The position numbers and the translations under genes are program-made. From NCBI RefSeq assembly GCF_904846675.1, contig NZ_CAJHBT010000001.1:186001-250000 (forward strand): a stretch of DNA of 64,000 nt, read 5' to 3'. The notes under the pieces are model-generated. The model worked only from the letters and a program-made list of their open reading frames with translations. It had not been told where the DNA came from and made no database searches. Source of the stretch: Psychrobacter urativorans (GTDB lineage Bacteria > Pseudomonadota > Gammaproteobacteria > Pseudomonadales > Moraxellaceae). Below are positions 14,289 to 37,145 of the stretch, piece after piece. Numbering within the stretch: position 1 is the stretch's first letter; the number at the start of each line of letters is the position of its first letter.

Positions 14289-15104
14289 CTACCCATAAGT
14301 CTTAACTAGATAATCTATAATATCCTGCGACTCGAACATCTCAGTGTCAGTATTAGGGTCAATTAGATAAGGAAATTGCAGCTTACCATTCATTTCTTCA
14401 TTCATGATACGTTCGCGTTTGCCACCTTTAATAGGTTCATACTTGCCAAGGTTAAGACGCTTTCCGAACACCCCAATATCTTCTATCTGCTCACGTGCCA
14501 CGTTATGGTTGATGTAGCCGACTTCAAGCGTACTGAGTTTTTCGCGTACCAAACGGCAGAAGGGACTCGCTTCAAAACCATATAAATGTAGCGGCTCATC
14601 AGGCTTGCCACGTGCTTTGTTCTTTTTCGGATGAGCAGCTTTAACCCCACGCATCATCGATACAACGCTGGCCGCTTTATTAATTAAAGTCGCGTTATCC
14701 TCATCACTCGGTTGTTGGTACTTGTCAGGTGTTGAGCCTTTTTTGGAATAATGGGCAAATAGATGGTCAATGATCGCTTGAGAGTCTAATATTTTATCAT
14801 CAGTATTTTCATCAACTAAAAAAGGAACTTGTTTCTTACCTGATAACTTCTTAAGCTCATCGCGGTAAACGTGACCTCTATGGGGGCTTGGGCAGCTTTC
14901 ATAGTCTAAATTAAGATGCGTCATAACTTCACGCACTCGGCGTGAATAGGGACAAGCTTCAAATTCATATAGAACCAGCGATTCCTCCGGCTGCATAGGC
15001 GTTGGCGTTCCCATATTGCCACGTCCGCCACGTAACAGGGTTGAAGTAGTCGCTTGCAGACTTTTAATCTTAAAACCGATAGCATTATTTGGAATAATCA
15101 TCAT
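14289..15104 (-). CDS. Tandem glutaredoxin / GST-N domain protein
   Basis: A 271-residue protein made of two thioredoxin-fold GST-N/glutaredoxin domains in tandem. The first (about 43-120) has C51-P-Y-S54 and ends with LDSQAIIDHL; the second (about 172-270) has S180-P-F-C183 and ends with FESQDIIDYL. The cis-Pro segments VPFLVDENTD and FPYLIDPNTD are present in each. Both domains keep one cysteine, at opposite ends of the CxxC position, so neither is a classical dithiol site. A linker rich in Lys and basic residues (about 150-168) joins them. The role is probably glutathione-linked redox chemistry, but I infer this from the fold only. Good ribosome-binding site (AAGGATATTA). Confidence 0.85.
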   Translation of the reverse strand: MMIIPNNAIGFKIKSLQATTSTLLRGGRGNMGTPTPMQPEESLVLYEFEACPYSRRVREVMTHLNLDYESCPSPHRGHVYRDELKKLSGKKQVPFLVDENTDDKILDSQAIIDHLFAHYSKKGSTPDKYQQPSDEDNATLINKAASVVSMMRGVKAAHPKKNKARGKPDEPLHLYGFEASPFCRLVREKLSTLEVGYINHNVAREQIEDIGVFGKRLNLGKYEPIKGGKRERIMNEEMNGKLQFPYLIDPNTDTEMFESQDIIDYLVKTYG

Positions 15105-15349
15105 TAATATCCTTATTTTATAGCTATTATTTTTATGGACGTTGTTTGTTTTCGTTTTTTAAGGAATAAACCAGCTAATAATAAACCAACAGTAGGCAAT
15201 ACAAGCCATACTTAATAAAAAAGGAGCATTAGCTCGTATCGAACCAACGCTCCTCTTTATTAGTACCATTTATTAGCGACAATTATTACTGCCAATAGTC
15301 AGTACTAAATTATTGTTGTTAAACCAACTCTTGCAAAACTAGCTTAGTA

Positions 15350-16462
15350 TCAATAGCGGGTGACCAGAGCGATTGGTTGATCTTCACCCATCATTTCTTT
15401 GGGCATAAAGACTGCTTCACCGCCATTATGAATCACATGCTCAATGATTAGACCCACTGCATCATCAGTGACGCCATCGGCTGCAGGATCGTCAGCCATA
15501 GTTAAGGTTTGTGCTTTTTCATCAACTTTGGCAGGTTGGATATAACCGCGACGGACATAAAGGGTCTCACCAGCACCTTGGAAAGCTAAGCGGTAGACTT
15601 CTTGTAAGTCAGTACTTAACATATCGACGCCGCGAGCTTTATCAATCTCGCCGAGAGCTGCTTCATGGAGCGAAGTACGGTAGCTTTCTACGGCTTCTTG
15701 TACACCGTCAATAATATGTTGCGCACTACCATCTTCAAGCTCAACCAAGTTAGACACTGTAGCGATGATATTGTCTGGACGGTCACATACTTCTTGATAG
15801 TAGCTAATGTTACGCGCGTCACCAACGATAACGAGTGGCATCTTATGCTCGCCCCACAGCTCTTGTACGCTTTTATCCACCTGATTGAAAAACTCTTTGA
15901 GATAGCTGTTTTCTTTATCTGCTGAGCGATCAGAACCGGCGTCACCAGTCTTATACAGGCTGTTGTTTTCGATAGGGAATGGAATACTTTCCATATTATT
16001 TTGAATATCAGAATCTTTTTGGATTTCGGCCACGACACGATCGTTTGATGCTTCAATTAGACGAGCACCGTCACGGGTAAGAACCACAGTGTAATAATGT
16101 ACAGCGCTTGCCATATCACGTACTAAATCGCGTGTTGCAAAACGATCTGAAATCATTACCCGCTCTGGGGTATCAAGTGGCATACGAATAATTTTCACGT
16201 CATCGGTGCTAGCAAAGATAGCCAAGGTATCTAGGTTGTAATTATGATCGAGCTCGTCAGTTTTAGCGTGAATATTGTCTAAAATCATAGTCGCTGTACG
16301 TTTATCATATTCATTAGTAATACGTTCTTCTGCAACTTTTAATTGATTTTTTAGGGCAATAGGGTCTTTATCATTATCAGGATGGTCACGGTGGGTCTTA
16401 ACAAAAATACTTACCGCTGGATTTGCTTTGGTTTCACGTAAACTCTTGAGGGTCGCTTTCAT
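15350..16462 (-). CDS. Balon-type ribosome hibernation factor (aeRF1/Pelota-like)
   Basis: A 370-residue protein of the bacterial aeRF1-like family that includes Balon, the hibernation factor described in Psychrobacter urativorans (I recall the NCBI family name AOC03_06830). Balon occupies the ribosomal A site, reaching from the decoding centre to the peptidyl-transferase centre, and is delivered with EF-Tu in the cold or starvation. Three regions match the eRF1 plan: an N-terminal domain (about 1-125), a middle domain beginning HYYTVVLTRDGARLIEAS (about 127), and a C-terminal L7Ae-like domain ending GGEAVFMPKEMMGED and ALVTRY. Neither the catalytic GGQ nor the NIKS decoding motif of true release factors appears, so peptide release is not expected. 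Ribosome-binding site AAGGAAAAGTATTT before ATG. The gene stands alone; the symbol is left blank because no standard one is fixed. Confidence 0.85.
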   Translation of the reverse strand: MKATLKSLRETKANPAVSIFVKTHRDHPDNDKDPIALKNQLKVAEERITNEYDKRTATMILDNIHAKTDELDHNYNLDTLAIFASTDDVKIIRMPLDTPERVMISDRFATRDLVRDMASAVHYYTVVLTRDGARLIEASNDRVVAEIQKDSDIQNNMESIPFPIENNSLYKTGDAGSDRSADKENSYLKEFFNQVDKSVQELWGEHKMPLVIVGDARNISYYQEVCDRPDNIIATVSNLVELEDGSAQHIIDGVQEAVESYRTSLHEAALGEIDKARGVDMLSTDLQEVYRLAFQGAGETLYVRRGYIQPAKVDEKAQTLTMADDPAADGVTDDAVGLIIEHVIHNGGEAVFMPKEMMGEDQPIALVTRY

Positions 16463-17047
16463 AAATACTTTTCCTTATATAGTTATCTTTAAATTTTAAC
16501 ATGACGAGTTAATGTTATTAATGTTTTATTATTTACTTTTTTGCTCGGAAATTAAGAAGATTACCATCTTAATTTTCTCAATTAATAACGCTCTTTTATT
16601 ATGCTTTAAGACTTGTTGTCGACTATTATCTTTTACTTAATTGAGTATTTATTTGATTAATTTACTCACTCGATTAATTCTATCGTATCAACTCTACCCT
16701 GTTATCTATACGGTAGCTTTGCAAATAAATGATGACGCTTTGTAAGCGAGGTAATTAAAATCGTGAATTTGCATCCTCTTTTAACTGAGATCTTGCTACT
16801 AAAAAACAATGACGAATTTTAGCGTTGCAGAGCAGTACTTGAGGATAATTCAGTAGCTTAGAATAAAGAGACGGCTTACTTTCATTTGGGTTGCATTCTT
16901 AACAAATGATACCCATCATTTAGATAGCATCTATATTTAGACAGACCGCTAAAGATGGATAGACCAACAGATAGCTACATAGTTATATAAAATTTATATA
17001 AAAATTTCAATCATAAATAAAACCCTTCTTCAATATTGGATACCTCT
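16463..17047. other. Long divergent intergenic region between the Balon homologue and prlC
   Basis: About 585 bp with no coding capacity I can support. An AT-rich inverted repeat (AAATTAAGA ... CTTAATTT, about 16549-16577) lies about 90-115 bp upstream of the hibernation-factor start. The length of the region would allow elaborate regulation of that gene, but no specific operator is identifiable by eye. Confidence 0.4.
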
Positions 17048-19237
17048 ATGCCTACCCTTGCCCCAGACTTACACCTTGTTGACTTTGCCGACACCGCTAC
17101 CAGTGATTTACAAACGCAAGTGACCACTGCTATTGATAAGGCCAATACCTTTTTAGATGAGTTGACAGCAATCCCTAGTGATGGCAATACCAGTGACAAT
17201 AATATTAGTGCTGCACAAGCATTAACCGACGTAATGACCTTTGATCATATTAATTTAGCATTGGATCGCAGCTGGGGCATTTTGTCGCACCTTAATAGTG
17301 TGATGAGTAATGACGACATTCGCCATGTGCATCATGAATTGCTACCGAAACTGTCCGCTTATGGGACTCGCGTTGGTCAGCATCAGCCACTCTTTATGCG
17401 TTATAAAACCATTGTGAATGATAAGGCGTTTTTAGCAGAGCTTGAGCCTGCTCGTGCGCGTGCTATCGAATTGGCGTTACAAAGCTTTGAGCTATCAGGG
17501 GTAGCATTACCAAAAGCCGAGCAAGATAAGTTTGCTATTATTCAAAGTCAGTTATCGACTTTATCTGCCACATTCTCGGATAATATTCTGGATGCGACTC
17601 AAGCTTATGCATTGCCTCTTAAAGAGGAGCAATTGGCAGGGTTGACTGACAGTGGTCTTGACCTATTAGCCGATGCTGGCAAACAGTACAAAGCACGCGC
17701 GTTAGAAAATGGCACACTATCGCAAGCAGATATTGATGCATTGCCCGAACCCTTTTATGTCGCCACTTTAAATATACCAGTTTATATCGCCGTTATGACT
17801 CACGCGGATAATCGCGAACTACGCGAGACGTTATACCGTGCCTATGTCACCCGCGCGTCAGAGTTTGATAAACATACCAATGCCAAAGGTGTGTCTCTAA
17901 ATAATGCCGACATCATGGGGCAGATATTACAATTGCGCGAACAAAAAGCCCATCTGCTAGGCTTTGCTAATTATGCTGAAGTGTCGTTATCGACTAAAAT
18001 GGCAGATAACGTGCCAGAAGTTGAGACCTTTTTGCGAAATCTTGCAACTGAAGCAACACCAACTGCCGAGCAAGATTCAGCACAATTACATGACAGTGCT
18101 AAAGAGTATGGCATTACCGATTTGCAGCCGTGGGACAGTGCCTATATTGCCGAAAAAGTAAAACAAGATAAATTCAGCTTGTCACAAGAAGAGATTCGTC
18201 CGTATTTCCCACTACCGAGAGTCATTGATGGTTTATTTGCCATCGTTGAGCGCCTATACGGCATTACCGTAAAAGAACAACAGCAAGAGCAAAAACATGA
18301 TGACAACAAGTCTAAAAAAACGGTATCACGTTGGCACGACGAAGTACGTTTTTATCAATTGTTCGATGAAAACAATCATTTAGTTGGCGGTTTTTACTTC
18401 GACCTATTTGCCCGCAGTGGCAAACGTGGCGGCGCATGGATGAGTGGCTTTCAGTCGCGCTACAGTCATGATGCGCAAGATTACAAACAGCTACCAGTTT
18501 GCTTTATGATCGGCAATTTTACCCCAGCGCTGGACGGTAAACCCAGCCTACTCACCCATGATGAGGTACTGACCTTGTTCCATGAGTTCGGTCACGGTTT
18601 ACATCACCTGTTAACCCAAGTATCTGTTGGCGATGTGGCAGGGGTGAATGGCGTCGAATGGGATGCGGTCGAGCTACCCAGCCAGTTTATGGAAAACTGG
18701 GCGTGGGATGCGGAAGGGATTGCCCTTATCAGTAGTCATGTCGAAACTGGCGAGCCACTGCCAAAAGACAAGCTCGATGCGCTACTCGCTGCTAAAAACT
18801 TCCAAAGCGGTATGCAAACCTTGCGTCAGATTGAGTTCGCCTTATTTGATTTACTCATTCATTCGCACACCCCAGCGCTGGATTATGACGGTATTTTGAG
18901 CACTTTAGACAGCGTGCGCAGTGATATTGCCATTATGGAAACCCCTGACTACAACCGTTTCGCCAATGGTTTTAGTCATATCTTTGCCGGTGGTTATGCC
19001 GCAGGTTATTACTCGTATAAATGGGCGGAGCTATTATCTGCTGATGCGTTCAGTAAGTTCGAAGAAGAAGGTATTTTTAATCCTATAACAGGCAAAGCCT
19101 TCCGTGAGACTATTTTATCAGTGGGTGGCAGCTTACCGGCTAAGACCAATTTTAAGAACTTCCGTGGTCGTAGTGCTAGTATCGATGCTTTATTACGGCA
19201 TAGCGGTTTTCATAATAATAATAGCGAGGCCAGCTGA
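17048..19237 (+). CDS. prlC: Oligopeptidase A (M3 family zinc metallopeptidase)
   Basis: A 729-residue cytosolic peptidase that degrades short peptides, including cleaved signal peptides. The zinc site H512-E-F-G-H516 lies in FHEFGHGLHHLL, with the family's VEWDAVELPSQFMENW and GGYAAGYYSYKWAELL segments following. Length is a little above the usual 680; a polar insert (EQQQEQKHDDNKSKK) explains part of it. ATG 17048 is preferred to an upstream in-frame TTG at 17036. Its stop overlaps the yheV start by one base (TGATG), so the two are translationally coupled, an arrangement I believe also occurs in other gammaproteobacteria. Confidence 0.95.
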   Translation: MPTLAPDLHLVDFADTATSDLQTQVTTAIDKANTFLDELTAIPSDGNTSDNNISAAQALTDVMTFDHINLALDRSWGILSHLNSVMSNDDIRHVHHELLPKLSAYGTRVGQHQPLFMRYKTIVNDKAFLAELEPARARAIELALQSFELSGVALPKAEQDKFAIIQSQLSTLSATFSDNILDATQAYALPLKEEQLAGLTDSGLDLLADAGKQYKARALENGTLSQADIDALPEPFYVATLNIPVYIAVMTHADNRELRETLYRAYVTRASEFDKHTNAKGVSLNNADIMGQILQLREQKAHLLGFANYAEVSLSTKMADNVPEVETFLRNLATEATPTAEQDSAQLHDSAKEYGITDLQPWDSAYIAEKVKQDKFSLSQEEIRPYFPLPRVIDGLFAIVERLYGITVKEQQQEQKHDDNKSKKTVSRWHDEVRFYQLFDENNHLVGGFYFDLFARSGKRGGAWMSGFQSRYSHDAQDYKQLPVCFMIGNFTPALDGKPSLLTHDEVLTLFHEFGHGLHHLLTQVSVGDVAGVNGVEWDAVELPSQFMENWAWDAEGIALISSHVETGEPLPKDKLDALLAAKNFQSGMQTLRQIEFALFDLLIHSHTPALDYDGILSTLDSVRSDIAIMETPDYNRFANGFSHIFAGGYAAGYYSYKWAELLSADAFSKFEEEGIFNPITGKAFRETILSVGGSLPAKTNFKNFRGRSASIDALLRHSGFHNNNSEAS

Positions 19238-36854: not shown

Positions 36855-36931
<77 letters not shown>

Positions 36932-37060: not shown

Positions 37061-37145
37061 TGGTGCGATTGGGGGGACTTGAACCCCCACAGCTTGCGCC
37101 ACCACCCCCTCAAGATGGCGTGTCTACCAATTCCACCACAATCGC
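37061..37145 (-). tRNA. leuU: tRNA-Leu (GAG), 85 nt
   Basis: Acceptor GCGATTG pairs with CAATCGC, followed by ACCA. The anticodon loop TTGAGGG gives GAG, and a long variable arm (GGTGGCGCAAGCT region) marks a class II tRNA. D-loop GAATTGGTAGAC and T-loop GGTTCAAGTCC fit. It stands between secG and tRNA-fMet as in E. coli. Confidence 0.94.

Follow-up and report, generated by a model that had tools for sequence, protein, structure and literature searches.

Balon was discovered in Psychrobacter, and according to the text of PMC10901736 it occupies the ribosomal A site of cold and stationary cells, where EF-Tu(GDP) accompanies it and RaiA may or may not be present. The same text describes how the HP motif of the P. 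urativorans protein (AOC03_06830; structures 8rd8, 8rdv, and 8rdw) contacts the decoding centre in a binding mode that is mRNA-independent, and it reports that days into stationary phase practically all ribosomes of this species carry Balon. A balon knockout of P. arcticus is described there as growing slightly faster in rich medium and as showing an early growth defect when recovering from three months' stationary phase. The mycobacterial Balons Msmeg1130 and Rv2629 (8v9j, 8v9l, and 8v9k; model NF052288) share A-site binding with the Psychrobacter protein, again according to the text of PMC10901736.

The window, the whole stretch of 64,000 nucleotides analyzed here, carries on its minus strand a 370-aa coding sequence with an ATG start (15350..16462), delimited from the open reading frame list and sequence matches, which we are nearly certain is Balon in both identity and function. 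When the protein was searched against all PDB chains with phmmer (E up to 10), the single sequence returned was P. urativorans Balon; residues 1-370 aligned with 1-369 of chain 8rd8_B at E 6.8e-206, with 8rdv and 8rdw matched as well, and a value of this size excludes a chance match. Chain 8rd8_B is deposited under the title "Methyl-accepting chemotaxis protein". The first-pass annotation had placed the protein in the Balon family and proposed the Balon HMM as a check; with the equivalog model NF052287 (AOC03_06830_fam_RHF), whose curated cut-off is 330 bits, the protein scored 519.2, which bears this out, while the mycobacterial model NF052288 reached 19 bits against a cut-off of 480. The protein is identical to its counterpart in P. 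urativorans ACAM534 (locus L063) in 311 of 370 columns (84%), so that about 16% of the residues differ from those of that strain; the copy here, known from its sequence, has the same HP, a single one-residue gap, and neither GGQ nor NIKS. Like P. urativorans Balon, it comes from Psychrobacter and from a genome with a RaiA-type gene.

The Pfam label leaves room for another reading, in which the protein either belongs elsewhere among the baeRF proteins or is active in release or rescue, and does not serve hibernation. The best Pfam match is baeRF_family3 (107 bits), followed by weaker matches to four other baeRF families, among which only family7 exceeds its cut-off, and a fold search also returns archaeal aRF1, eRF1, and Pelota. 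From its name, we take baeRF_family3 to be a domain-family label for bacterial aeRF1-like proteins that implies no competing function. Against such a role, both GGQ and NIKS are missing from the 370-aa sequence, as the first-pass annotation had stated, so the protein lacks the motifs of aRF1/eRF1 release factors; no aeRF1 was returned by the sequence search of the PDB, the equivalog cut-off is passed, and the protein is 84% identical to P. urativorans Balon, of which ribosome-bound structures have been solved. A release or rescue factor, or another baeRF protein, is thus extremely improbable, and no non-ribosomal aeRF1-like family matches better than Balon.

His27-Pro28, which lies within THRxHP (codons at 16379..16384, minus strand), is the sole HP in the protein and was for that reason taken as the motif, as the text of PMC10901736 gives no residue numbers. 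Residues T23, H24, R25, H27, and P28 are invariant in 28 aligned proteins (chosen from 73) and in 71 full-length proteins, and 102 positions are the same as in the window protein in all 71. This count leaves out two Psychrobacter loci, L099 and L104, in which the balon frame is broken early, after 35 and 53 codons, and tblastn spans the entire protein; either pseudogenes or sequencing errors would account for the breaks, and the upstream regions of both were retained. Since the alignment to P. urativorans Balon contains only a one-residue gap, the lasso loop, the bL27 trap, and the EF-Tu-binding beta-loop would be expected in this copy.

A ColabFold model was built from 28 relatives and has a mean pLDDT of 75.2; its N-terminal part is poor, with pLDDT below 50 at residues 22-33, the region of the HP motif. 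In Foldseek, the three P. urativorans Balon chains (8rdw, 8rd8, and 8rdv) ranked first, with E values of 3.1e-53 or lower over 366-368 columns, as the proposed structural check had anticipated. Two Msmeg1130 chains (8v9j and 8v9l) came next at E 1.7e-14 or lower, and aRF1, eRF1, Rv2629, and Pelota ranked below them. The mycobacterial Balons thus appear to have the same fold, at 13-15% identity and with the score of NF052288 far below its cut-off. The aRF1/eRF1 and Pelota/Dom34 proteins share the three-domain plan and were found via structure search, at 9-15% identity (E up to 0.001); unlike them, the window protein lacks NIKS and GGQ, and none of them was found by sequence search. The chains superpose only loosely (rmsd 8.2, TM 0.61-0.63), as would be expected if domain orientation is poorly predicted; the fold evidence is therefore supportive and the sequence evidence decisive. 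The full-length alignment to 8rd8_B and, more weakly, the Foldseek result support the presence of the N-terminal, middle, and C-terminal domains, in agreement with the eRF1/Pelota plan that the first-pass annotation had recognized.

By analogy with its P. urativorans orthologue, this copy would be expected to act in the same way, entering the A site when cells are cold or stationary. The N-terminal HP motif would touch the decoding centre, leaving the mRNA channel unused, the middle domain, which has no GGQ, would lie at the peptidyl-transferase centre, and the C-terminal domain would meet EF-Tu(GDP). Because of these contacts, Balon could park ribosomes of two kinds: vacant ones, jointly with RaiA, and others that still hold mRNA and tRNA.

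Balon matches occur in all 60 genomes examined from the same genus, one of them partial (G032, residues 1-173) and another interrupted by an internal stop (G059). Across the order, 13 of 293 genomes match and nine exceed the cut-off, eight of these belonging to the genus (own genome included) and one to another genus of the same family. The genome from which the window derives (63 contigs, 2.73 Mb) holds one balon match. Among named relatives, P. frigidicola has the nearest Balon (92%); these relatives include three Moraxella records with Balons at 54-57%. One raiA-type gene (PF02482) was found in the own genome, about 174 kb from balon on the same contig, and RMF had no match in this genome.

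The gene appears to be monocistronic by layout, as the first-pass annotation had noted. Its start codon is preceded by a ribosome-binding site, AAGGA, read from the sequence at 16472..16476 (minus strand), and in all 73 upstream regions compared an AGGA begins 10-14 nt 5' of the start codon. Upstream lies a divergent prlC-like gene for an M3-family oligopeptidase (17048..19237, plus strand; PF01432, 481.6 bits), and prlC adjoins balon in divergent orientation in 68 of 72 loci. The gap between the two genes is 585 bp, the figure originally given, if prlC starts with the ATG at 17048, and 573 bp if it starts with the TTG at 17036, the start selected in the open reading frame list. Downstream, a hairpin with a U-tract resembling an intrinsic terminator was located by folding against shuffles (about 15217..15255, minus strand); it folds at -31.1 kcal/mol (z -8.63), and none of 200 shuffles equals its folding. 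Past the hairpin, 245 bp downstream of balon, lies a co-oriented glutaredoxin/GST-like gene (14289-15104, minus strand). Its product is a glutaredoxin/GST-N domain protein with two GST_N_3 stretches, a tandem N-terminal domain; a GST C-terminal domain was not reported in the domain search, and a match to this protein was seen in 11 of the 72 relatives whose flanks were examined.

The first-pass annotation had also suggested that the upstream region offers room for control sequences, and a conserved element found there supports this. The 573 bp upstream were compared by blastn with 72 relatives, giving 73 upstream regions with the window included, and two recurrent conserved islands were seen in an otherwise poorly conserved gap. 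The island closer to balon is a predicted Balon-specific promoter/operator element (16682..16746, minus strand); it was located in the relatives by an ungapped seed match, and 18 selected loci were then aligned with MAFFT. It contains two boxes 21 bp apart, CTTACAAA and YTTGCAAA, which form a direct repeat; the distal TTACAAA (16739..16745) and the proximal TTGCAAA (16718..16724), both on the minus strand, show no variation across the 18 rows aligned (chosen from 73). A conserved block with the consensus CCcTAnAG, reading CCGTATAG in the window (16706..16713, minus strand), was derived from 39 non-redundant upstream regions. At a fixed offset from TTACAAA lies an extended -10, TGATACGAT (16682..16690, minus strand), with the pattern TGnTAnnnT, the positions of which define an extended -10.

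The element pattern is present in 66 of the 73 upstream regions, 39 of them non-redundant (<85% identity), with the consensus cTTACAAAGcgnnATCATTTgCTTGCAAAntaaCCcTAnAGnnngtnnggtnnannTGnTAgcaTca. Mean information content per column is 0.16 and 0.13 bit in the two outer flanks, against 0.07 when shuffled, and rises to about 1.6 inside the element. The offset of TGnTAnnnT from TTACAAA is 55 in 64 of the 66 upstream regions and 54 in one, the motif being absent in L102, while its background in the same regions is 346 of 7393 overlapping 24-nt windows. The pattern is absent in seven regions, four from Psychrobacter (L092, L094, L097, and L103) and three from Moraxella, within up to 840 bases searched in each, or just 411 for L097. 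Inspected by eye, L092, L094, and L097 seem to retain parts of the element: either the block resembling a -35, or a single box along with the extended -10.

We consider this element probably to be balon's own promoter, and we read it as also holding the site of a putative regulator. The sequence suggests an extended -10 promoter whose transcript would begin near 16675. Counted from the extended -10, the CTTRCAAA boxes would fall near -67 and -46, with the CCcTAnAG block at -35, a spacing that points to this block as the -35 region; no good -35 hexamer is visible in the element. An activator site immediately upstream of a weak -35 would be the natural reading of this arrangement, with the putative activator binding the direct repeat and setting the dose of Balon. 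A sigma-70 consensus scan gave 10 sites, compared with 6.7 (sd 2.2) for shuffled sequence, and was set aside.

As prlC is the neighbor in 68 of 72 loci, the element could instead belong to prlC or serve both genes. Its distance is 159-540 bp to balon and 187-498 bp to prlC, measured in 39 of the 68 prlC loci picked to thin near-duplicates; since the two distances vary alike, spacing assigns no owner, and ownership depends on the direction of the -10. The extended -10 lies on the balon side and points to balon with fixed spacing, and inspection of the other direction revealed no conserved -10. Moreover, the second conserved block, closer to prlC (16886..16928, no strand assigned; blastn pieces from a number of relatives at query positions of about 108-150), probably belongs to prlC, as its likely promoter, and can serve that gene. 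Ownership by prlC, in whole or in part, is thus unlikely, and the element is better read as the promoter of balon.

Strong conservation at 159-540 bp 5' of a start codon could also be expected of a structured RNA leader or a small RNA. RNAalifold on 18 sequences predicted 0 pairs, and this lack of a consensus RNA structure suggests that the element acts as DNA. Furthermore, conservation stops about 25 nt beyond the extended -10, and the element region has no Rfam match at gathering scores, so an RNA in place of a DNA promoter/operator is very unlikely. Over the whole window, Rfam at gathering scores reported just two tRNA genes, at 36858-36931 and 37064-37145 (minus strand).

The specificity of the promoter candidate was assessed in 26 genomes, where up to three mismatches gave 43 matches, against three for a reversed control pattern. 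With no more than one mismatch there were 22 matches, one each in 22 of the 26 genomes, all directly upstream of balon and on the same strand. The remaining 21 matches have two or three mismatches and lie away from balon; six of these were inspected, of which four fall within reading frames of at least 106 aa and two (L122 and L129) outside. At balon, four genomes (G005, G014, G021, and G023) lack a match even when three mismatches are allowed; in G021 and G023 the sole matches are elsewhere, with two and three mismatches, in intergenic-looking places (L129 and L122, position 1501), and these matches near other genes are probably due to chance. In the window the element has one match, with none in 100 shuffles, and the CTTRCAAA direct repeat has no second place in the own genome at the stringency searched.

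The RpoS model was matched only below its cut-off in 16 of 16 genomes of the genus, and by one of 14 control genomes, presumably E. coli, above it; the sub-threshold hits are probably other members of the sigma-70 family. With no RpoS above the cut-off, the stationary-phase appearance of Balon would need another input, for which the element is a candidate. We therefore raise the tentative idea, which is possible but more doubtful than the promoter assignment itself, that an activator on the 21-bp-spaced CTTRCAAA repeat and the extended -10 form a private balon switch that replaces RpoS-type hibernation control. As to the regulator, a resemblance of the boxes to sites bound by regulators of the OmpR family, for example BfmR, gained no support from a literature search and was dropped, as was a resemblance of the 21-bp spacing to AraC/XylS-type sites. 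Among the literature matches listed for RpoS in Moraxellaceae, nothing was relevant.

As a protein, this is an ordinary Psychrobacter copy of a Balon that is already known, the host genus being the one in which Balon was discovered, and a further orthologue of a characterized family in its home genus by itself changes little. The first-pass annotation was fair in calling it the most likely system of the window, but the protein is not new. The upstream element matters more, as a genus-wide, gene-specific promoter candidate with a well-defined direct repeat, and is still a modest addition. As far as a narrow literature search shows, the element is unreported; the same search found nothing on how balon is switched on in Psychrobacter, and the word "promoter" is absent from the main text of PMC10901736. 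With the element, the control of balon becomes open to direct testing in P. arcticus, a species for which that text describes a Balon knockout. If the private switch is real, finding its regulator would reveal how the bacterium decides on the deployment of Balon.

A wider regulon was also considered. With the direct repeat at one mismatch in 26 genomes, no other place was seen recurring in most of them, and the locus of the raiA-type gene showed no excess (three element matches versus 2.0 expected). In the own genome, about 1.2 kb separates this raiA-type gene from one of the matches that fall below the cut-off of the RpoS model (C1:24812-25612 and C1:26783-27076). The arrangement CTTGCAAA...CTTGCACA occurs at a place away from balon in at least four Psychrobacter genomes (e.g., G009:C3:232846 and G003:C13:59202).
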